DNA of 64,000 bases from Flavobacteriaceae bacterium PS02336 (GTDB lineage Bacteria; Bacteroidota; Bacteroidia; Flavobacteriales; Flavobacteriaceae), in contig JASCOF010000009.1 in the NCBI GenBank assembly GCA_029960065.1, forward strand, positions 1 to 64,000, given 5' to 3'. Of this stretch, positions 52,548-64,000 are shown one piece after another (position 1 is the first letter of the stretch; every line of letters begins with the position of its first letter). The translations under genes were made by a program, and so were the position numbers. The notes beneath the pieces were generated by a model. The model saw only the letters and a program-made list of their open reading frames with translations, was not told where the DNA came from and did not search any database.

Positions 52548-52747
52548 TTTTATTTCAGAACAAAAAAAATAGGTTTCAGAACATTTTTTCAGCCTTGGCG
52601 CAGGAAAGTTTTAGTTTTAAACTCTGAATAAAACCAAATGCCCCTGTAAATTTCACATTTCTCCCGATGGAGAATTCTTCTTTTTTAATTTTCAGCCTTT
52701 TTACAGAAACGGTTTTATTAAAGCAATTTAATTCTAAAAAGACTGCT

Positions 52748-55700
52748 ATGAAAAAAAACTACTTAGTGCTAAAATTATGTTATCTCTTTATCTTTTTAAT
52801 CACTACATCCCATAATACATGGGCACAGACTTCAACTGAAACATTTGAGACAGAATCTAACGGTTCTAGCAGTTTTACAGATAATGGAGTCATTTTTAAT
52901 ATTATTTCTCATGTCAATACATTTGATATTGGGTATTATCCCGGAACAGGTTGGAACGGAACAGCAAACGACAATACATATATTGACAATAGTGGTTCTT
53001 TAAGCACTGGTGCCTCATTTAGTATTAAAACAACTTCAAACCTGTTTAGGGTAAACAGATTTTGGGTTTTCCTTGCAAATATCTATACCAATCAAAATTC
53101 AACAGGAACACTTACAATTACTGGTAAACTAAGTGGAATAACTAAATTCTCTCAGGCCAAAACTAACGGTTTTGCTACTTCATTAGGCACTACTAATGGT
53201 AATACCTTAATAGATCTTACCAATTTAAATGGACAAAACTATTCCAACATCATAATAGATGAACTTCAGATTACCGCAGGTGGAAACTATGCTTATTTGG
53301 CATTAGATGCTTTTACGTGGGTAAAAGATAGTAATATAGTATCGAGCTGTTTAAACTTTACAACCGAACAAACTAATATTGCATGCAATGGCGGAGCAAC
53401 TGGTATTGCAACGGTCACTCCAAGCGGTGGTACTCCACCCTATACATATCTTTGGTCTAATAATGCAACCACGTCAACAATTAGTGGTCTTACAGCAGGA
53501 AATTATAGTGTTACTATTACAGATGCTGCTTCATGTGAAAAAACACAAAGTTTTACAATAACTCAACCACCAGCTTTAAGTGCCTTTCAAAGGTTTATTA
53601 CCAATGTAACTTGTAATGGTGGTACAAATGGTTCTGCAGCTGTTAGTGTTACAGGAGGAACGGGAGCATATACCTACTTATGGAATACAACGCCTGTTCA
53701 AACAACTGCAACTGCAACAGGGCTTCCTGCAGGAACTTATACAGTAACAGTAAAAGATGGTAATAATTGTACAACGACACAAAGCTTCACTATAACACAA
53801 CCATCTGCTTTTACAGCAAGTATTGGAGCACAAACCAATGTTTCCTGCAACGGCGGAACTAATGGTTCTGCAACTGTTAACGTTACGGGAGGAACTGGGA
53901 CTTATACTTATTTATGGGCTCCTTCTGGAGGAACAGGTGCTACCGCTTCAGGTCTGACTGCTGGTACTTATACTGTAATTGTAAAAGATGCCAATTTATG
54001 TCAGACTACACAAAGTTTTACTATTACACAGCCTTCATTATTAGAAGCAACAATATCAAAAACGGATGTATTATGCAATGGAGGTTTAACTGGAACAGCA
54101 ACAGTAATTCCTACAGGTGGTTCGGGCAACTATACTTATATATGGAGTCCCTCAGGTGGTACAGCCCCCACAGCCACTGGACTACCAGTAGGAAACTACA
54201 GCTGTTTGATAACAGATGCAAAAGGCTGCAGTATTACCAAAACTATTACTATCAATCAGCCATCAGTATTAGGTGCAACCACTTCACAAATAAATGCTAC
54301 TTGTACTTCTAGTGGTCAAGCTTCTGTAACACCATTTGGCGGTGTAGGTGGTTATACCTTTTTATGGTCACCCAGCGGTGATACGACACAAGCAGTTACC
54401 AATTTGACAGCAGGAAATCATAGTTGTTTGATTACAGATGCCAATGGCTGCAGTATAACTAAAAACTTTACTATCACAACAACAAATACTTTAGTTGCCG
54501 CTGCTTTTCAAACTAATCTTTTATGTAATGGTGTTAATACAGGATCTGCTGCTGTAATTCCTTTGGGAGCTCCTGGTCCTTTTACTTATGTGTGGTCTCC
54601 ATCTGGAGGAAATGCAGATACAGCAACTAATCTATCTGCTGGTAATTATTCTGTAACTATTACGGCGTCAAACGGCTGTTCTATTGTCAAAAATTTTACA
54701 ATTACACAGCCTGCAGCAATTAATATTACTCCAAATCTACAAACAAATGTTACTTGCAATGGTGGAGCAAACGGTTCTGCAGGTGTTTCTGTAACTGGAG
54801 GAACGGGTGCTTATACTTATTCATGGTTTCCTTCGGGAGGAACTGCCGCTACAGCCTCAGGACTTAAAGCAGGAACTTATACCGTAACCGTGACCGATGC
54901 CAATTTATGTTCAAAAACGCAAAGCTTTACCATAACAGAACCAGCTATTCTAACAGCAGCTGTATCTCAAACAAATGTTTCATGCCATAATGGTTCCAAC
55001 GGAACAGCAACTGCTACTCCAGCAGGAGGAACTGGAACATATACTTATCTATGGACTCCTTCTGGAGGAACTAATGCAACAGCAAGTGGACTTGCCGCAG
55101 GAAATTATACCGTAACAATCAAAGATGCTAATTTGTGTCAAACAACGGCAAATGTTACTATAACCGAGCCTGATCAGCTTACTGCGGCAATATCCAAAAC
55201 AGATGTTTTATGTAATCAAGCAAATAACGGAACAGCAACGGTAATACCGACAGGAGGAACTGCACCTTATACCTTTTCTTGGTCTCCTTCAGGAGGAACT
55301 GCATCAACGGCAACGGGATTAAGTCCGAATAATTATACTGTAACAGTTACAGATGCTAAAGGATGTTTTACAACTAAAACCATTCAAATAACAGAACCTA
55401 ATATTCTTTCAATAACAGAATCTCATACAAATGTGTCATGCAACGCTGGAAATGACGGTTCTGCATCAGTAATTGTATCTGGCGGAACTGGCAGTTATAC
55501 CTACTCTTGGACACCATCTGGAGGAACTGCTCAAACAGTTTCAGGTCTTTCTGCTGGAACTTATACCGTAACAGCTACAGATACAAATGCTTGTTCTATA
55601 TCGAAAACCATAACAATTACAGAACCAGATGCCTTGACGGCCAGTATTACAGCTGTTAATGTTAGCTGTAATAATGGAAAAAATGGTTCTGCATCGGTAG

Positions 55701-57364
55701 CCGCTTCTGGCGGAACTGGTTCATACACTTATAATTGGGCACCATCTGGAGGAAATACTGAAACAGCTGAAGGTCTTGCTGCAGGAGCTTATACCGTAAC
55801 AATTACAGATACAAATTCTTGTTCTACAACAAAAACCATAACAATTACAGAGCCAGATGTATTAACCGTAAATAGTACAGCAATAGATGTTTCATGCTAT
55901 AATGGAAAGAATGGTTCAGCTTCTGTAACAGTTAACGGCGGAACTGCACCTTATATTTACTTATGGTCTCATAACGGTGCAACTACATCGAACGTAACCG
56001 ATCTTAAAGCAGGAACTTATGACGTAACGGTAACAGACAGTAATTCCTGTACATTATCTGCAACGATTCTTATAAATGAACCTGCCAATCCAGTAAATCT
56101 AAGTATTTCGACCATTTCAGGAGTAACAGTTTCTGGAGCAACATTATCAGCGACAGCTTCTTCTGACGGAATTAATACAGACAAAGGAGAATGTTTAACA
56201 GAAATTGGTTTTGTATATGCATCTCATGCAAATCCAACTATAGCAGATACAAAAATAAATGTTTCTGCTGCATTAGGAAACTTTACAACCTCAATAGCTG
56301 GACTAAGAGGAAACCGAACTTACTATGTAAAAACTTACGCGATTAATAACAGTGGCTTTATTAATTATGGAAATGAAATTAATTTTACTACAGAAAAATA
56401 TACTCTTAATATAACGGCATCTTCAGGACATGTAAAAGTTTACGGTACATCTGACCCGATATTCAATTATAGTGCTGCAGGTTTTGCTAACGGAGATACA
56501 AACTCCCTAATTACAGGACAGCTTTCTAGAGAAGCAGGAGAAAACGTTGGAAAATACAACATCACACAAGGAAATATAAGTGCTGGTGCCGATTACATAA
56601 TAGCCTTTACAACTTCCGAATTTGAAATTACAAAAGCAAATCAAAATATAACTTGGAACCAGACTTTAGAATTTGGCTGTGATGATGCAACAATTATAGC
56701 GCTAAATGCAGTATCAGATAGCGGACTGCCAGTTTCTTTTACTATTGCAAATGATGCAATCGGCAAAATTTCTGGATCAACATTAACAATCTTAAACTCT
56801 GGAAGCACAACAATTTCAGCATTCCAAAATGGAGATCAAAATCACAATGCGGCAGTTCCTGTAATTAAACCAGTAGAAATAAGTCAGGGCGAGCTTATAA
56901 AACAGCAATGGGCCGATGTTATCTTTTTTGACAATAAAAGCAACGAATTTAACGCTTGGCAGTGGTATAAAAACGGAAACGCTGTTACAGGAGCAACACG
57001 CCAGTATTACAGCGAAGAGCAACCTTTAAATGGTTCTTATTATGTTATTGCAAAAAATACAAACGGTAATTCAATTAAATCCTGCCCAATTGAAACCACA
57101 GGAACTGCATTCTCTCAGAGTTTGAAAATCCATCCGAATCCAATAAAACCATCAAGTGAATTCACTTTAGCATGTGATTTCAGCGAGTCACAGCTAAGCG
57201 GATCCGAAATTACCATTTTTGATGTTACAGGAAGATTAGTGCAGACTATCACAAATGTAAAACCTCAAAATCAGATCATTGCTCCTTCTCAGTCGGCCAT
57301 ATATGTTGTCGTTCTTTCGCTGCACAATGGTCAGAAAAAAACAATCAACTTATTGGTTAAGTAA
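52748..57364 (+). CDS. SprB-repeat type IX secreted adhesin-like protein
   Basis: A 1538-residue surface protein with a signal peptide (about 1-27, NTWAQ end), a beta-rich N-terminal domain (about 28-205) and twelve SprB repeats of about 76 residues (209-1115). Each repeat runs from a TNVSCNGG-like start through GTYTVTVTDANLC to a TITQP/TITEP end. An Fn3-like part, an MBG-type domain (about 1216-1300), an Ig-like region and a type A T9SS C-terminal sorting domain (LKIHPNP, then the late VVLSLHNGQ) follow. It should be exported by the gliding-linked type IX system. I chose MKKNYLVLKL because it heads the signal peptide; the longer frame adds 27 residues. Confidence 0.92.
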   Translation: MKKNYLVLKLCYLFIFLITTSHNTWAQTSTETFETESNGSSSFTDNGVIFNIISHVNTFDIGYYPGTGWNGTANDNTYIDNSGSLSTGASFSIKTTSNLFRVNRFWVFLANIYTNQNSTGTLTITGKLSGITKFSQAKTNGFATSLGTTNGNTLIDLTNLNGQNYSNIIIDELQITAGGNYAYLALDAFTWVKDSNIVSSCLNFTTEQTNIACNGGATGIATVTPSGGTPPYTYLWSNNATTSTISGLTAGNYSVTITDAASCEKTQSFTITQPPALSAFQRFITNVTCNGGTNGSAAVSVTGGTGAYTYLWNTTPVQTTATATGLPAGTYTVTVKDGNNCTTTQSFTITQPSAFTASIGAQTNVSCNGGTNGSATVNVTGGTGTYTYLWAPSGGTGATASGLTAGTYTVIVKDANLCQTTQSFTITQPSLLEATISKTDVLCNGGLTGTATVIPTGGSGNYTYIWSPSGGTAPTATGLPVGNYSCLITDAKGCSITKTITINQPSVLGATTSQINATCTSSGQASVTPFGGVGGYTFLWSPSGDTTQAVTNLTAGNHSCLITDANGCSITKNFTITTTNTLVAAAFQTNLLCNGVNTGSAAVIPLGAPGPFTYVWSPSGGNADTATNLSAGNYSVTITASNGCSIVKNFTITQPAAINITPNLQTNVTCNGGANGSAGVSVTGGTGAYTYSWFPSGGTAATASGLKAGTYTVTVTDANLCSKTQSFTITEPAILTAAVSQTNVSCHNGSNGTATATPAGGTGTYTYLWTPSGGTNATASGLAAGNYTVTIKDANLCQTTANVTITEPDQLTAAISKTDVLCNQANNGTATVIPTGGTAPYTFSWSPSGGTASTATGLSPNNYTVTVTDAKGCFTTKTIQITEPNILSITESHTNVSCNAGNDGSASVIVSGGTGSYTYSWTPSGGTAQTVSGLSAGTYTVTATDTNACSISKTITITEPDALTASITAVNVSCNNGKNGSASVAASGGTGSYTYNWAPSGGNTETAEGLAAGAYTVTITDTNSCSTTKTITITEPDVLTVNSTAIDVSCYNGKNGSASVTVNGGTAPYIYLWSHNGATTSNVTDLKAGTYDVTVTDSNSCTLSATILINEPANPVNLSISTISGVTVSGATLSATASSDGINTDKGECLTEIGFVYASHANPTIADTKINVSAALGNFTTSIAGLRGNRTYYVKTYAINNSGFINYGNEINFTTEKYTLNITASSGHVKVYGTSDPIFNYSAAGFANGDTNSLITGQLSREAGENVGKYNITQGNISAGADYIIAFTTSEFEITKANQNITWNQTLEFGCDDATIIALNAVSDSGLPVSFTIANDAIGKISGSTLTILNSGSTTISAFQNGDQNHNAAVPVIKPVEISQGELIKQQWADVIFFDNKSNEFNAWQWYKNGNAVTGATRQYYSEEQPLNGSYYVIAKNTNGNSIKSCPIETTGTAFSQSLKIHPNPIKPSSEFTLACDFSESQLSGSEITIFDVTGRLVQTITNVKPQNQIIAPSQSAIYVVVLSLHNGQKKTINLLVK

Positions 57365-57391: not shown

Positions 57392-58708
57392 ATGAAAATT
57401 AAACTCACTATAGCAATACTAATATTACTTAACACCGCAATAAAAGCTCAGGAACTCCAGTTTAAGATTAATGGAGGACCGTCTGGAATTCTTTACGACA
57501 GTACGATTGGAAATGGTAAATTAAAATTTGGAGGAGGAATCGGTATCGGATATACTTATTTCTTCAGCACTCATTGGGGAATTTCATCAGGAATTGATCT
57601 CATGTACAATCAGAATAGTTTTGAACTGAATGACGGAAATACAATTAGTACGTACGAAGTTGACGATCAAACTTCTGCATTTGAGTATCGCGTAACACCT
57701 TCAAAATACAAAGAAGAACAGCATTTTATTACAGCAGCTATTCCGCTTTTAATACAGTATAAAACAGCTTTCGATTCTAACACGCAATGGTATTTTGGAT
57801 TTGGCGGTAAAATTCTGTTTCCAGGAAAACAGACCGTTAAGGCTTCCGCAGCAGAATTGCAACTAAGCGGTTTTTATCCTGATCTAAATTTATTGGTTGA
57901 TGATCTTCCCTCACATGGTTTCGGCCAAGTGACAAATTGGAAAGAGGAAACCAAAGCAAGTTTAGATCCAACAATTTTATTAAGTGCAGAAACCGGTCTT
58001 ACCTTTAAAATCAAAGAAAAAACACACCTTTACACTGGTGTTTATATCGATTATGGTTTAACCAATTTAGCAAAAGAAACTTCAGATGTTAATATTGTGA
58101 CTTACAATCCAAACGGAATTGATAATATTCAGGCAAATGGTACAATTGGAAATAAAAAAATTGTTCAGGACACACGTTATTTAACTGCTGGAATTCAAGT
58201 TAAACTAGGTTTCTCAGTAGCAAAAGACAAACCGCAGCCTGTACAGCAAAAAACAGAAACCATAACAGAAACAAAAGAAATACCAGTTCAAGAACCTCCT
58301 GTGCAGCAAAAAGTTGTTGAAACTGCTCCTGCAAAAACAGAACTGACATTGGAGGAAAGAAACTATATCGAGAAAAAACCGCTGGCCTTTCAAGAAGTTG
58401 GAAATACAAGCGTAACACCAGAACTTGCATCAAGATTAGACGAAATTGCTAAAATTCTGAATTCAAATAAAGACACCGATTTAAATATTACGGGATATAC
58501 CTGCGATATTGGAACTAAAATCCGCAATCTTGAAATCGGAATGAAGAGAGCACAGGCTGTGGCCGATTATTTAAAAACTAAAGGAATAGAATCTAAACGT
58601 ATGCATTTATTTTCAAAAGGAGAAAATAATCCTTTAGTTCCAAATATTCCAGCCGAAAATAAACCGCTCAACAGGAGAGTTTCCCTAACTCTTGTTGACG
58701 GAAATTAA
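57392..58708 (+). CDS. Outer membrane beta-barrel protein with OmpA C-terminal domain
   Basis: A 438-residue protein with a signal peptide (1-20, AIKAQ end), a beta-barrel (about 21-270; strands such as GYTYFFSTHWGISSGIDLMY and TAGIQVKLGFSV), a Pro/Gln/Glu-rich linker (about 275-315) and an OmpA-like peptidoglycan-binding domain (about 330-438; NITGYTCDIGTKIRN, GMKRAQAVADYLKTKGIESK, NRRVSLTL). It follows the adhesin gene after 27 bases. Such pairing suggests it helps to hold or assemble the adhesin at the surface, although SprB itself uses an SprF (PorP-type) partner. A strong terminator follows. Confidence 0.85.
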   Translation: MKIKLTIAILILLNTAIKAQELQFKINGGPSGILYDSTIGNGKLKFGGGIGIGYTYFFSTHWGISSGIDLMYNQNSFELNDGNTISTYEVDDQTSAFEYRVTPSKYKEEQHFITAAIPLLIQYKTAFDSNTQWYFGFGGKILFPGKQTVKASAAELQLSGFYPDLNLLVDDLPSHGFGQVTNWKEETKASLDPTILLSAETGLTFKIKEKTHLYTGVYIDYGLTNLAKETSDVNIVTYNPNGIDNIQANGTIGNKKIVQDTRYLTAGIQVKLGFSVAKDKPQPVQQKTETITETKEIPVQEPPVQQKVVETAPAKTELTLEERNYIEKKPLAFQEVGNTSVTPELASRLDEIAKILNSNKDTDLNITGYTCDIGTKIRNLEIGMKRAQAVADYLKTKGIESKRMHLFSKGENNPLVPNIPAENKPLNRRVSLTLVDGN

Positions 58709-58843: not shown

Positions 58844-58859
58844 CATGATTTGAATCATG
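58844..58859. promoter_or_regulatory. FNR/CRP-type palindrome upstream of nadA
   Basis: CATGATT-TG-AATCATG is a perfect 7-bp dyad. The core ATGAT-TTGA-ATCAT matches the FNR consensus TTGAT-N4-ATCAA at 8 of 10 positions. A TACATTTA box (58881-58888) close to the minus-7 consensus lies downstream and would put the palindrome centre at about minus 43, the usual activator position. Confidence 0.55.
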
Positions 58860-58880
58860 TTTTGAAAGAAATGATGATAA

Positions 58881-58888
58881 TACATTTA
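58881..58888 (+). promoter_or_regulatory. Near-consensus minus-7 box of the nad operon
   Basis: TACATTTA differs from TAnnTTTG at one base. It is 16 bases after TTTG at 58861-58864 and 59 bases before nadA. A poor minus-33 spacing fits an activator-dependent promoter. Confidence 0.45.
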
Positions 58889-58946
58889 CCCTATTAAAAT
58901 ATATGCTTAACGCATTTCAAAACAAACATTGATTTAGATCTTAAAA

Positions 58947-59879
58947 ATGGACAAGAACATTTTAATACAGGGAATAATCCAATTAAAACGAGAAAAAAAT
59001 GCTGTAATTCTGTCGCATTATTACCAAGATGAAGACATTCAGAATATAGCAGATTTTATTGGAGATAGTCTTGAATTAGCAAAAAAAGCGCAAAGCACAG
59101 ATGCTCCCATAATTGTATTTGCGGGAGTTCATTTTATGGCAGAAACAGCTAAAATTTTAAACCCAGATAAAAAAGTTTTATTACCAGATTGGAAAGCTGG
59201 CTGTTCACTTGCTGACGGCTGTAATCCTAAAGATTTTGAATTGTTCAAAAGCCAGCATCCTAATCATGTTGTAGTGACTTATATAAATTGTTCTGCCGAA
59301 ATAAAAGCCATGAGCGATTTGGTTTGCACTTCGGCGAATGCAAAAAAAATAATCGGGTCTATACCCGCTGAACAAAAAATCATTTTTGCTCCAGATGAAA
59401 ATTTAGGTAATTATCTTCAAAAGGAAACCAAACGTGAACTGGTCTTATGGAAAGGCTCGTGTGTAGTACATGAAGCCTTTTCATTAGACAAACTAATTGA
59501 AATCTACAATAAAAATCCGAATGCCAAAATTGCAGCACATCCTGAGTCGGAAAGTCATATTTTAAAAGCAGCACATTACATCGGCTCCACTTCGGGTATT
59601 ATTAATTTCATTAAAACGGATCCTGCTGCCGTTTTCATTGTGGCTACAGAAGCCGGTATCCTGCATGAGCTTTCAAAAGCGGTACCTGATAAAACGCTGA
59701 TTCCGGCTCCTACCACAGAAGATAACAGCTGTGCCTGCAGCGAATGTGCTTTCATGAAAATGAACACACTCGAGAAACTGTACTTATGCCTAAAAAATGA
59801 AAGTCCAGAAATGCAGATTACAGAAAAACTCAGAATTGAAGCCTTAAAACCAATTGAAAAAATGCTCCAATTGTCATAA
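58947..59879 (+). CDS. nadA: Quinolinate synthase NadA
   Basis: A 310-residue enzyme that condenses iminoaspartate with dihydroxyacetone phosphate to quinolinate in NAD synthesis, using one [4Fe-4S] cluster. The three conserved cluster cysteines are present: Cys86 in KAGCSLADGC, Cys172 in KGSCVVHEAF and the C-terminal CACSEC group (Cys262, 264, 267). Oxygen and NO damage this cluster. It heads nadB (27 bases downstream), ric and nrdD on the same strand, and a palindromic operator lies upstream. Length is normal for the shorter NadA type. Confidence 0.95.
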   Translation: MDKNILIQGIIQLKREKNAVILSHYYQDEDIQNIADFIGDSLELAKKAQSTDAPIIVFAGVHFMAETAKILNPDKKVLLPDWKAGCSLADGCNPKDFELFKSQHPNHVVVTYINCSAEIKAMSDLVCTSANAKKIIGSIPAEQKIIFAPDENLGNYLQKETKRELVLWKGSCVVHEAFSLDKLIEIYNKNPNAKIAAHPESESHILKAAHYIGSTSGIINFIKTDPAAVFIVATEAGILHELSKAVPDKTLIPAPTTEDNSCACSECAFMKMNTLEKLYLCLKNESPEMQITEKLRIEALKPIEKMLQLS

Positions 59880-59906
59880 AATCAATAACGCTAAAATCAA
59901 AATAAC

Positions 59907-61418
59907 ATGATCACAACAGATATATTAATAATCGGTTCTGGTATTTCGGGATTATTTTTTGCTATGAAAACGGCAAAAAAACGTCCAGATTTATCTATTG
60001 TTATAATGACTAAAGAAACAGCCAGAAATACTAATACGCAACTCGCTCAAGGCGGAATTGCAGTTGTAACAGACCTGGTAAAAGACAGTTTTAACAAACA
60101 CATACATGATACACTTCGCTCTGGAGGCGGTTTATGTGATAAAGAAGTGGTCAATATGGTTATTAAACAAGCTCCAGAAAGACTTAAGGAATTGATTGAA
60201 ATTGGAACTTCTTTTGACAAAGACGAAAAAGGCAGATTGGATTTAGGACTTGAAGGAGGACATTCACAACATAGAATAGTACATCATAAAGACAGCTCCG
60301 GATTGGAAATTGAGCAAAAACTGCTCAAAATAGTCAAGAAAATGCCGAACATTGAACTTTGGGAAAACCATATGGTTATTGACTTGAATACCGAGACCAA
60401 GAAAAATAAAACTACTTGTACCGGAGCCTTCTTTTATGATAAAAAACACAATAGAATCAAATACATTAGAACCCGAACAATTGTTTTAAGCACAGGAGGA
60501 TGCGGTCAGCTTTTTGAAAACACAACTAACCCAAAAATTGCAACTGGCGACGGACTTGCGATGGCTGCGCGTGCGGGTGCTGAAATTGCAGATATGCAGT
60601 ACATTCAGTTTCATCCAACGGCTTTATGTGCGGGAAAAGAGAATCCGCTGTTTTTAATTTCTGAAGCTGTACGAGGTTTTGGTGCTCATGTTGTAAACGA
60701 AGACGGAAAAAGATTTTTATTTAAATATGATATTCGAGGAGAATTGGCTACTCGAGATATGGTATCAGATGCCATTAGTAAAGAACTTCAATTGAGTGGA
60801 AAAGACCATGTTTATTTAGATTGCAGACATTTAAATACGGCTTCATTTTACGCTCATTTTCCAATAATTGCGGCGCACTGTAATGAATTAGGCATAAAAC
60901 CAGAAAAAGATTTAATTCCGATTGTTCCCGCTGCTCATTATCAATGCGGCGGTATAAAAGTAGACCTAAATGGTGCAACTGCAATTCCGAATCTATATGC
61001 CATTGGCGAATGTGCCAGAACTGGATTGCACGGTAAAAATCGTCTAGCCTCCAATTCACTTTTAGAAGCTTTGGTTTTCGCACATCAAGCATCAGAGAAT
61101 GTCGACAGGACTATTGCAGGATTTATTTTTTCAACAAAAATCTTAATTCCGAAGTTTCCAAAGACACATCAAATTGATGATTACCTTGCTTTTGAAGTGC
61201 TAAAAAAAGAGCTGCAAAAATTGGTTACTTCTTTTTATACCAGTGAAGAACGTGATGCCGATTTGACTTTTGAAAAAATAAAAGAGCTTCATAATTATGC
61301 CGTTTCGCTTACAGCAGCACATGAAATTACAATTCCGTTTATAGAATTTTCAAATATGCTTGCTGTGTCTTTAATCATTGTTAAACAATGCAGAGCGGCG
61401 AACAAAGAAATGTGCTGA
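59907..61418 (+). CDS. nadB: L-aspartate oxidase NadB
   Basis: A 503-residue flavoprotein that oxidises aspartate to iminoaspartate, feeding NadA. It has the FAD motif GSGISG (10-15), TNTQLAQGGIAVV, GLEGGHSQHRIVH, the FHPTAL segment and CARTGLHGKNRLASNSLLEA, the usual NadB signature. NadB can use fumarate in place of oxygen, so it can work without air. It ends 22 bases before the chosen ric start. Confidence 0.95.
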   Translation: MITTDILIIGSGISGLFFAMKTAKKRPDLSIVIMTKETARNTNTQLAQGGIAVVTDLVKDSFNKHIHDTLRSGGGLCDKEVVNMVIKQAPERLKELIEIGTSFDKDEKGRLDLGLEGGHSQHRIVHHKDSSGLEIEQKLLKIVKKMPNIELWENHMVIDLNTETKKNKTTCTGAFFYDKKHNRIKYIRTRTIVLSTGGCGQLFENTTNPKIATGDGLAMAARAGAEIADMQYIQFHPTALCAGKENPLFLISEAVRGFGAHVVNEDGKRFLFKYDIRGELATRDMVSDAISKELQLSGKDHVYLDCRHLNTASFYAHFPIIAAHCNELGIKPEKDLIPIVPAAHYQCGGIKVDLNGATAIPNLYAIGECARTGLHGKNRLASNSLLEALVFAHQASENVDRTIAGFIFSTKILIPKFPKTHQIDDYLAFEVLKKELQKLVTSFYTSEERDADLTFEKIKELHNYAVSLTAAHEITIPFIEFSNMLAVSLIIVKQCRAANKEMC

Positions 61419-61440
61419 AACCAATAAATCCCCCACCTAT

Positions 61441-62172
61441 ATGAAACTAACAAACAAAACCACAATTGGTGAAATTGTTGCAGATGATTTTAGAACAGCG
61501 GCAATTTTTACAAAATACCATATCGATTTTTGCTGTAAAGGCTACCGCACAATTGAGGAGGTCTGCAAAAAAAGAGATATTGAAGAAAAAGTGCTTATCG
61601 AACATATCGAAAAAGCCAGAAACAGTTCTGCCAACCAGTCTTTTGATTATAAAACGTGGCCCGCAGATATGATTGCAGATTACATTACTAAAACGCATCA
61701 CAAATATGTTGAGGAAAAAGCTCCAATAATTATTCAATACTTAACCAAGCTATGCGGCGTTCACGGTGCCATTCATCCTGAACTTCATGAAATACATACC
61801 ATTTTTTCTAAATCTGTTTTGGATTTAACGGCTCACATGAAAAGAGAAGAACTAGTTGTCTTTCCTTTCATCAAAAAAATGAAATCGGCACAAAGCAAAG
61901 GAATTCCGTTTGAAATGCCTGCTTTTTTCAGCATCGAAAATCCGATAACAACTTTAAAAGAAGATCATATTACAGAAGGAGAACGATTTAGGAGAATTGC
62001 AGCATTAACTAATAATTACACTCCTCCAAACGAATCATGCACCACATACAAAGCGGCTTTTGCAATGCTGGAAGAATTTCATAAAGATTTGAAAAAACAC
62101 ATTCATATGGAGAATAATATTTTATTCCCGAAAGCAATTGAACTTGAAAAAACTTTCGAAAAAGTGTCTTAA
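61441..62172 (+). CDS. ric: Iron-sulfur cluster repair di-iron protein (Ric/YtfE/ScdA family)
   Basis: A 243-residue protein with an N-terminal DUF542/ScdA_N domain (about 1-60, with IDFCCKGYRTIEE) and a C-terminal hemerythrin-like domain (about 80-240) whose di-iron ligands appear in KTHHKYVEE, HGAIHPELHEIH, HMKREELVVFPF, DHITEGERFRRI and HIHMENNILFP. The family repairs Fe-S clusters damaged by NO or peroxide. I chose the ATG giving MKLTNKTTIG because the longer frame would overlap nadB. It sits between NadA/NadB and NrdD, all oxygen- or NO-sensitive or anaerobic enzymes. Confidence 0.93.
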   Translation: MKLTNKTTIGEIVADDFRTAAIFTKYHIDFCCKGYRTIEEVCKKRDIEEKVLIEHIEKARNSSANQSFDYKTWPADMIADYITKTHHKYVEEKAPIIIQYLTKLCGVHGAIHPELHEIHTIFSKSVLDLTAHMKREELVVFPFIKKMKSAQSKGIPFEMPAFFSIENPITTLKEDHITEGERFRRIAALTNNYTPPNESCTTYKAAFAMLEEFHKDLKKHIHMENNILFPKAIELEKTFEKVS

Positions 62173-62184
62173 ATAAGAATAACC

Positions 62185-64000
62185 ATGGAGAAATATGTCA
62201 TCAAACGCAACGGAGATTATAAACCTTTTGAGGCTTATAAAATTCAGGATGCAATTCAAAAAGCTTTTCAAAGTGTCAATAAAACTGTAGACAAGAAAAT
62301 CTATAAGATTGTGCTTTCTGATCTGGAAGTGAAATATTCCTGGCCGGTAGAAGAAATTCAGGATATCATTGAAAGAGTCCTTTTTGAAAATGGCTATTTC
62401 CAAACCATGCGATCGTTTATAATTTACCGCCATACGCGAAAATTGCAGCGCGAACATATTAATGGTTTTAGTGATGATACAACGTACATAGACAGCACAC
62501 AAACTGTTGAAGAATACATCAACCAGTCAGATTGGCGAATCAATGCCAATGCAAATATTTCATATTCTAACGCTGGATTGGTCAGTAATACCGCGGGAAA
62601 AGTAATTGCCAATTATTGGCTCGATAAAATTTATAACAAAGAAGAAGGTTCTGCTCATAGGAATGGCGACATACACATCCATGATTTGGATTGTCTTACC
62701 GGTTACTGCGCGGGATGGAGCTTGCGCGTGCTTTTGAACGAAGGATTTAATGGCGTGCGCGGCCGTGTCGAGAGCAGACCTCCTTCTCATTTTAGAGAAG
62801 CATTGGGACAAATGGCTAATTTTCTCGGAATTCTGCAAAGCGAATGGGCTGGCGCTCAAGCTTTCAGTTCTTTTGATACGTACCTTGCTCCTTATGTTTT
62901 TAAAGATCAGCTTTCGTATGAAGAAGTTTTAAAAGCAGTTAGAAGTTTTGTTTACAATCTTAATGTTCCAGCGCGTTGGGGACAATCGCCTTTTACAAAT
63001 ATTACTTTGGATTGGAATGTTCCTGATGATTTAAAACAACAGATCCCGACAAGAAACGATCAGCATTTATTTTTGAATGTTACAGATGAAAATATAATTG
63101 CTGAAGCTAAAAAAAGAGGCGCATCAAAATTAATAGATTTAAAATATGCTGATTTTCAAAAAGAAATGAATCTCATCAATAAAGCCTATTATACGATTAT
63201 GACCGAAGGTGACGCCAACGGACAACCGTTTACTTTCCCAATTCCGACAGTAAACATTACCGAAGATTTTGACTGGAATGGCGAAAACGTCGATTTGTTA
63301 TTTGAAAATACAGCTAAAATTGGTTCATCCTACTTTCAGAATTTTATTGGAAGCCAATATATTTTGGATGAAAATGGAAACCGAATCGAAAATCCAGAAG
63401 CTTACAAACCAAACGCAGTTCGAAGCATGTGCTGTAGATTACAGCTCGATTTAAGAGAATTACTAAAACGAGGAAACGGACTTTTTGGAAGTGCTGAAAT
63501 GACTGGAAGTATTGGTGTTGTGACCATCAATATGGCGCGTTTAGGCTATTTGCATAGAGGAAACATTATTAATCTATTTGCACATTTAGATGAATTATTG
63601 AAAATCGCCAAATCAACTTTGGAGAAAAAAAGAATATTTATTCAACAAATGTACGACCGCGGATTATATCCGTACACACAGCGTTATTTGAAACATTTTA
63701 GAAATCATTTTTCTACAATCGGTGTAAACGGAATGAACGAAATGGTGATCAATTTTTCGGAAGGAAAACAAAATATAACCTGCAATTCAGGAATCCATTT
63801 TGCCACAGAAATTCTGGATTATATTCGGTTGCGAATGAAAGAATTTCAAGAAGAAACCGGAAATCTTTACAATCTGGAAGCAACTCCAGCCGAAGGAACA
63901 ACCTATCGTTTTGCAAAAGAAGATAAAAAGCGTTTTCCAGACATTTTACAGGCTGGACAAAATGAGAATATTTATTATACCAATAGTTCACAAATTCCTG
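62185..64000 (+). CDS. nrdD: Anaerobic ribonucleoside-triphosphate reductase (partial, 3' end outside)
   Basis: The frame runs uninterrupted for 605 codons to the window edge. It starts with an ATP-cone domain (MEKYVIKRNGDYKPF, then KIQDAIQKAFQSV) and continues into the class III reductase core (NANISYSNAGLVSNTAGKVI, YWLDKIYNKEEGSAHRNGDI, HIHDLDCLTGYCAGWSLRVL, and FGSAEMTGSIGVVTINMARL further on). It makes deoxynucleotides without oxygen, using a glycyl radical whose site lies beyond the window. nrdG, the activase, is expected next. It starts 12 bases after ric, so it is in the same operon. Confidence 0.92.
   Translation, partial: MEKYVIKRNGDYKPFEAYKIQDAIQKAFQSVNKTVDKKIYKIVLSDLEVKYSWPVEEIQDIIERVLFENGYFQTMRSFIIYRHTRKLQREHINGFSDDTTYIDSTQTVEEYINQSDWRINANANISYSNAGLVSNTAGKVIANYWLDKIYNKEEGSAHRNGDIHIHDLDCLTGYCAGWSLRVLLNEGFNGVRGRVESRPPSHFREALGQMANFLGILQSEWAGAQAFSSFDTYLAPYVFKDQLSYEEVLKAVRSFVYNLNVPARWGQSPFTNITLDWNVPDDLKQQIPTRNDQHLFLNVTDENIIAEAKKRGASKLIDLKYADFQKEMNLINKAYYTIMTEGDANGQPFTFPIPTVNITEDFDWNGENVDLLFENTAKIGSSYFQNFIGSQYILDENGNRIENPEAYKPNAVRSMCCRLQLDLRELLKRGNGLFGSAEMTGSIGVVTINMARLGYLHRGNIINLFAHLDELLKIAKSTLEKKRIFIQQMYDRGLYPYTQRYLKHFRNHFSTIGVNGMNEMVINFSEGKQNITCNSGIHFATEILDYIRLRMKEFQEETGNLYNLEATPAEGTTYRFAKEDKKRFPDILQAGQNENIYYTNSSQIP

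Follow-up and report, generated by a model that had tools for sequence, protein, structure and literature searches.

The last part of the window analysed here, the first 64,000 nucleotides (forward strand) of contig JASCOF010000009.1 of Flavobacteriaceae bacterium PS02336 (GCA_029960065.1), carries the genes nadA, nadB, ric, and nrdD behind an FNR-type palindrome. These genes probably form a low-oxygen operon, switched by a regulator of the Crp/Fnr family and probably linked to nitric oxide (NO), which would supply NAD and deoxyribonucleotides (dNTPs) without O2. The main idea of an earlier note on this DNA, that of a low-oxygen or NO response module, appears to be mostly right. The most unusual feature lies just past the window edge. 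There, as encoded, the class III ribonucleotide reductase (RNR) NrdD is split, with its radical loop on a conserved 55-aa gene of its own. Since the window stops at 64000 while the contig, of 244,170 bases, runs on, the radical-loop gene and nrdG were out of sight of that note. The four genes that it named, and the NrdG2 gene beyond, all pass curated NCBIfam cut-offs. The features are as follows.

58844..58859, strand not assigned: FNR-type palindrome with the core ATGATTNNAATCAT, exact match, conserved in relatives
58881..58888, + strand: -7-like element TACATTTA, 29 bp past the dyad centre
58947..59879, + strand: nadA, quinolinate synthase, the only genome copy found (NF006878, TIGR00550)
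59907..61418, + strand: nadB, L-aspartate oxidase (TIGR00551, above cut-off)
61441..62172, + strand: ric, di-iron Fe-S repair protein, 243 aa from ATG (TIGR03652, above cut-off)
62185..64000, + strand: nrdD large chain, 707 aa, cut by the window edge and ending at C37:64308 on the contig (NF006126, TIGR02487)
C37:64289-64456, beyond the window: 55-aa glycyl-radical peptide (RVMGYHRPV; PF13597, 28.9 bits)
C37:64398-65126, beyond the window: nrdG2, TTG start as listed (TIGR02495, 197.6 bits)
C37:65148-65594, beyond the window: CopD-like 148-aa protein

The palindrome 5' of nadA and its geometry

The sequence CATGATTTGAATCATG at 58844-58859 is the exact 16 bp dyad CATGATT-TG-AATCATG, as the earlier note had it, and the exact form CATGATTNNAATCATG has one listed copy only in the 5,818,938-base genome. 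When up to two mismatches to the dyad are allowed there are 63 sites in the genome, compared with 14 when the reversed pattern is used as a control, interpretation being limited to those with an exact core; the surroundings of two one-mismatch sites (L133, L134), inspected by eye, gave no clear link. With three mismatches allowed, and in the 64-kb window alone, there is no enrichment (6 found, 7.7 expected). The 14-bp core ATGATTNNAATCAT is present in six copies in the genome and its reversed control in none; some of the copies are 5' of flavohemoglobin and globin genes. It is found in the 350 nt upstream of nadA in all seven of the genomes whose nadA is closest (G000, G049, G015, G006, G042, G057, and G004, including that of the window), and 500 dinucleotide shuffles of these seven upstream regions gave a mean and a maximum of 0 cores.

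The Bacteroidota -7-like consensus is TAnnTTTG, and in class II activator geometry the site is centred about -41 from the transcription start. On these grounds the dyad centre is presumably about 41–43 bp ahead of the predicted start, in agreement with the earlier estimate of about minus 43. In all seven closest relatives the spacing between the core and the TAnnTTTG-like element (five or more of its six letters matched) is 29 bp; that between the core and the nadA ATG is variable (72–309 bp). Five of the six exact cores in the genome have a -7-like element at 29–30 bp, four of them perfect. These are the cores 5' of nadA, of the flavohemoglobin gene hmp, of a gene pair for a small membrane protein and, after it, a truncated globin, of a porin adjoining an MFS gene that is NarK-like by eye, and of a 212-aa probable outer-membrane protein whose Pfam match is just under the cut-off. 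Against the upstream background this has a binomial probability of 3e-7, for a spacing that was picked after the data had been seen. Over the 28 nadA-bearing stretches, where 16 exact cores were counted on both strands with the seven nadA sites included, an offset of 29 is a clear peak, with 13 hits as compared to 6 for the next.

The spacing is as expected of a class II activator site, the start being a predicted one. FNR and other class II activator sites likewise have a 14-bp palindrome with ATCA arms and a centre at about -41, but the FNR site is TTGAT/ATCAA where the box here is ATGAT/ATCAT, accompanied by a Bacteroidota -7-like element. The shuffles, the reversed control, and the fixed spacing rule out a chance palindrome in the close relatives and at the exact cores.

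Related boxes are seen more widely. The palindrome ATGACTNNNRTCAT is present about 50–60 bp 5' of nadA in Salegentibacter, UBA5534, and Flagellimonas (L152:7928, L156:7935, L168:7929), where there is no nrdD within the stretch examined; given its presence in these other Flavobacteriaceae, the box may predate the operon. An imperfect box, CTGATAnnTRTCAT, recurs 5' of nadA in another NadA clade (L118:-164, L119:-191, L121:-192, L123:-81, L125:-160), and is present too in genomes without 3-HAO (G044, G056, G030).

As for a regulator of the CRP/FNR type, the genome has 30 matches to the cNMP-binding domain, two of them in proteins longer than 600 aa and the rest in proteins of Crp/Fnr size. Among these are at least three candidate regulators for the putative FNR-type promoter box. 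The FNR recognition helix is E-x-x-S-R; L010, L008, and L007 have, by eye, the similar E-x-x-I-R. Four FNR-like cysteines are visible by eye in L010, the best NCBIfam match of which is to Fnr, below cut-off, and which has relatives of more than 60% identity in 19 of the 61 genomes of the genus set (45 of these 61 being at least 98% complete). L008 adjoins an apparent cbb3-oxidase cluster, and an FNR-family gene 73% identical to it is located at 3833-4510 of L127 (G031), tail to tail with nadA in a nadA-nrdDG cluster. L007 adjoins the globin pair, and L007-like genes (39–44% identity) lie inside the nadA stretch at 6 of 55 loci.

The genes next to these boxes and regulators bear on the identity of the signal, which might be NO, or nitrosative damage to Fe-S clusters, rather than low O2. 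A heme- or Fe-S-based Crp/Fnr protein would then act in nitrate or nitrite respiration, co-inducing hmp, the globin pair, ric, and the operon, with the NAD and dNTP enzymes joining because they are NO-sensitive. The exact cores 5' of the flavohemoglobin gene and of the membrane-protein/truncated-globin pair fit such a signal, as do ric in the operon itself, the porin box beside the NarK-like gene, and the L007-type genes beside the globin pair and in the nadA stretches. It is nevertheless nrdDG and an O2-independent quinolinate synthesis, which fit a lack of O2 and not NO as such, that the box precedes. An NO signal in place of low O2 is a serious possibility, if on balance a doubtful one; NO and low O2 often coincide, and the two are not separable from sequence.

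NAD synthesis and anaerobic ribonucleotide reduction in the genus

The genome has one nadA and one nadC. The suggestion that these genes might be a second nad set is therefore wrong for nadA, for which it is ruled out by the single copy in the genome search; no second-nadB search was made. Alongside nadA there are a 3-HAO and a TDO gene (C22:421728 and C33:288714, respectively), and by these two markers, on which the route was judged throughout, the alternative NAD route appears to be of the kynurenine type.

Across the 61 genomes, intact nadA is present in 28 (with fragments in G029), 3-HAO in 54, TDO in 58, and nrdD in 27, the one in G046 being counted just from its C-terminal peptide, which is at the end of a contig. 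Both nadA and nrdD are found in 25 genomes, nadA only in 3, nrdD only in 2, and neither in 31, a co-occurrence with a Fisher probability of 1.8e-11, uncorrected for kinship. In the 45 genomes that are at least 98% complete the corresponding numbers are 19, 2, 2, and 22. All 33 genomes without intact nadA have 3-HAO and all 7 without 3-HAO have nadA, 6 of them having nrdD too; nadA and 3-HAO are together in 21. Where a genome has both genes, the nadA and nrdD matches are usually within 6.6 kb of one another (22 of 25); in one genome they are 10.1 kb apart, in another 21 kb, and in the last they are on separate contigs. Gene orders include nadA-nadB-ric-nrdD-nrdG, nrdD-nrdG-nadA-nadB, and a divergent arrangement of nadA and ric-nrdD-nrdG. 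In a tree of 60 of the 108 loci, the NadA sequences of the genus form separate clades, not one, most members being near nrdD.

These data also bear on a reading in which nadAB is no more than the usual NAD route in some members of the genus, with an nrdDG neighbourhood that is inherited and not functional. The 7 of 61 genomes with nadA and without 3-HAO would agree with this (kinship again uncorrected), but 21 of the 28 nadA genomes have 3-HAO as well, the presence of nadA follows that of nrdD, and the arrangements vary between NadA clades that are separate and yet mostly near nrdD, all of which makes a merely inherited neighbourhood unlikely.

According to one account, three steps of the kynurenine route depend on O2, fumarate is usable by aspartate oxidases, and anaerobic fungi bypass the O2-dependent route by way of NadA and NadB (PMC8262920). 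As in those fungi, nadA and nadB here would yield NAD without O2; the fungi are without the kynurenine route, whereas here a genome can have markers of the two routes side by side, with nadAB next to an anaerobic RNR behind a regulator-type box. Since nadA tracks nrdD, the kynurenine steps need O2, and fumarate is usable, nadAB is best read as an O2-independent quinolinate supply accompanying anaerobic dNTP synthesis.

Fumarate can serve NadB as a substrate, and NadA needs no O2 to make quinolinate. In the low-oxygen operon as proposed, falling O2, and probably NO too, would cause an activator of the Crp/Fnr family to bind ATGATT-NN-AATCAT, whose centre would lie some 41 bp ahead of the start, a class II position, and to turn on nadA-nadB-ric-nrdD-(glycyl-radical peptide)-nrdG, presumably as one transcript. 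NAD synthesis would go on through NadA and NadB where the O2-needing kynurenine route stalls, NrdD and NrdG would supply dNTPs in place of the O2-dependent reductase, and Ric would mend Fe-S clusters damaged by NO or O2. The low-oxygen or NO module of the earlier note is in this way supported by the palindrome in all seven closest relatives, the fixed -7 spacing, the gene set, and the boxes at hmp and the globin pair, and was mistaken about a second nad set as far as nadA is concerned.

Several observations weigh against this low-oxygen operon. The palindrome is conserved in the closest relatives but is not enriched 5' of nadA in the remaining 21 nadA genomes, where the core is found in 1 and a looser form in 2 (shuffles for the looser form having a mean of 0.26 and a maximum of 3). 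The full looser box, WTGAYNNNNRTCAW, is found no more than 350 nt from nadA, ric, or nrdD in just 14 of the 28 nadA genomes, some of the stretches being without ric or nrdD, and is absent from the searched stretches of the related genomes G012, G023, G032, and G059. In the window's own genome, the core 5' of an SDR gene (L143) lacks the -7-like element at 29–30 bp. Of the 14 box-bearing genomes, 7 are without an L010 relative of more than 60% identity, and for this reason the four-cysteine FNR-like protein is disfavoured as the sole regulator. Three genomes have nadA without nrdD and two the reverse; one of the three, G057, has lost nrdD, keeping a remnant with no peptide, and retains nadAB-ric. 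Finally, nadA is the sole de novo route seen in 7 genomes, 6 of which have nrdD, and is therefore not merely a backup there.

A glycyl-radical loop on a gene of its own

The 707-aa NrdD matches positions 2-529 of the 562 in NRDD (PF13597; 548.7 bits) and ends after CPKC, while the 55-aa open reading frame (ORF) matches positions 530-562 of the same model (28.9 bits, cut-off 26.2). The large chain has in addition an ATP-cone (PF03477, 68.9 bits) and matches NF006126 with 1086 bits. The barrel, ATP-cone, finger-loop cysteine, and zinc site of a class III RNR are present, with a radical-SAM NrdG as the next gene. The glycyl-radical motif is not found in the 707-aa catalytic chain and sits in the separate 55-aa ORF, and this NrdD, taken as ordinary in the earlier note, is for that reason filed as a split variant. 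RSMCC with C416/C417, and the zinc-site residues C671, C684, and C687, do not vary across 9 rows of split and fused enzymes; by comparison with the fused enzymes, the break falls in the alignment after the zinc site and ahead of the radical loop.

The split is a constant feature of the genus. NrdD bodies end without the motif in 26 of 26 genomes with a readable end (27 having an nrdD match), and the peptide occurs as one copy per genome in exactly those 27 genomes. It has its own conserved ATG and N-terminus. The gap from the nrdD stop to the peptide start varies between -23 and +215 nt, with each of the three frames represented, over the 27 loci measured out of 29, two of the 29 being outside the genus. 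The peptide core has a median dN/dS of 0.017, indicating strong purifying selection, with values obtained for 241 of 406 pairs and with the peptide overlapping its neighbours in some genomes. Three misaligned peptide rows were dropped from the alignment. A broken gene, a sequencing error, or a joining by frameshifting or read-through, suggested by the peptide overlapping the nrdD end in the +1 frame in the window's own genome, is highly improbable given the 26 of 26 split bodies, the peptide's own start and low dN/dS, the plasmids on which the two are annotated as separate genes, and a viral contig where two other ORFs separate body from peptide, and is ruled out by the varied gaps in all frames.

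A search of the peptide against PDB sequences gave no match at E up to 10, and against Pfam, at E up to 0.001, the only match was to NRDD, with none to GrcA or Gly_radical. No split NrdD was found in print in the open-licence literature, subscription papers and RNRdb being outside this scope.

For a structure model, one Flavobacterium NrdD was read through its in-frame stops into its own peptide and folded with 36 relatives. The joined model has a mean predicted local distance difference test (pLDDT) score of 80 and a predicted template modelling (pTM) score of 0.76; the linker, below 50, is unfolded, and the peptide (about 770-805), at 68–87, is for the most part predicted with confidence. 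Residues 85-805 align by VIA-align to 85-735 of the Prevotella copri NrdD chain 8p2s_B (Z 34.7, root mean square deviation 2.5 Å, 557 residues). The glycyl-radical domain of that enzyme is placed at 676-739, with Gly711 near Cys416, in its published description (PMC11226230). The joined model aligning to 8p2s_B, the peptide would be able to fill the place of this domain. Two points temper this. The alignment used for folding held fused enzymes, and the docking of the peptide is to that extent partly built in, which means that the model indicates compatibility and not binding; and a first model, from 7 rows, failed at a pLDDT of 42 and was not used.

The P. copri enzyme (8p23/8p2s) shares the ATP-cone, the NRDD barrel, the finger-loop cysteines, the zinc site, the NrdG2 activase, and the fold of the joined model, and differs in that the radical loop is here a separate 55-aa polypeptide. 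A short free-standing glycyl-radical protein for a large enzyme is also known in GrcA/YfiD, the closest precedent (PMC8683613). As described there, however, YfiD rescues a pyruvate formate-lyase that has its own domain, whereas the NrdD chain here has none in any of the readable bodies, and the only Pfam family matched by the peptide is NRDD. With a large chain that lacks its own radical domain the peptide should be obligatory, and it is very likely to be an obligatory radical subunit. The split class II RNR NrdJa/NrdJb likewise has a C-terminal part on a second gene (PMC9669993) but is B12-dependent and without a glycyl radical, unlike the split NrdD.

Split NrdD is not confined to the genus. 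Of 395 genomes from the phylum, 28 have an NRDD match, in 17 of which it is fused and in one a fragment; those that are split comprise eight of the genus and two from other families (G330, G062). Matches to the peptide are present in 28 plasmid records. Five of the six examined are split (Sulfuricurvum, Bradyrhizobium, Paracoccus, Sulfuricystis, and Cupriavidus metallidurans, where the gene is unannotated), and that of Acidiphilium is fused; the small gene is annotated as nrdD in two records and as hypothetical in one. The C. metallidurans genome paper, in the portion available, gives Rmet_5137 and Rmet_5139 as NrdDG and leaves the intervening gene unnamed (PMC2864759); this gene appears to be the peptide.

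Among 80 viral contigs with NrdD relatives, 44 are fused, 16 are split with a peptide, 11 have no motif in the flank, 8 are without a readable body, and 1 is cut, these classes coming from a crude motif by which some contigs were called motif-less that look fused by eye (L370, L396, L397). In the viral contig L328 the peptide is about 2 kb from the body. Phage records searched with the peptide gave one weak match. In an NrdD tree of 34 hand-picked rows the bacterial split sequences are in one supported clade (97/100), which also holds the fused Acidiphilium sequence; L329 and L330, viral long ORFs without the motif, fall outside it. A further alignment took 32 of the 80 viral loci, hand-picked, and five others.

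The peptide would dock in the NrdD barrel beside C416/C417 and take its radical from NrdG2, and might be exchangeable. A tentative extension of this is a radical cartridge: O2 would cut only the 55-residue peptide, at its glycine, and a fresh one would dock once the spent piece had left, with dNTP synthesis recovering without the 80-kDa enzyme being remade. If this were true, the cartridge would let respiratory bacteria and viruses regain anaerobic dNTP synthesis after exposure to O2, and no exchangeable glycyl-radical subunit would have been known before as a built-in part of a class III RNR, as far as the literature searched extends. According to Andorfer et al. (2021), pyruvate formate-lyase is the only enzyme for which spare parts have been validated, with others speculated (PMC8683613). 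With the radical on its own small protein, the exchange, repair, and activation of such enzymes would become directly testable.

Other observations concern individual loci. The viral fused NrdDs L347, L352, L376, and L380 have by eye an extra C-terminal thioredoxin/glutaredoxin-like stretch, and several viral NrdD ORFs (L329, L330, L331, L337, L409, L410, L411) are 938 to 1461 aa long, perhaps through inteins or other inserts. On the Sulfuricurvum kujiense plasmid (L322), the split nrdD-nrdG is between an NnrS-family gene and napA, perhaps as part of a mobile anaerobic respiration set. In the window itself, 5' of the palindrome, there is a 1565-aa SprB-repeat protein (52667-57364) with 12 repeats above threshold and a secretion-system sorting tail, and the next gene encodes an OmpA/beta-barrel protein (57392-58708), a pair of the gliding or adhesin type.

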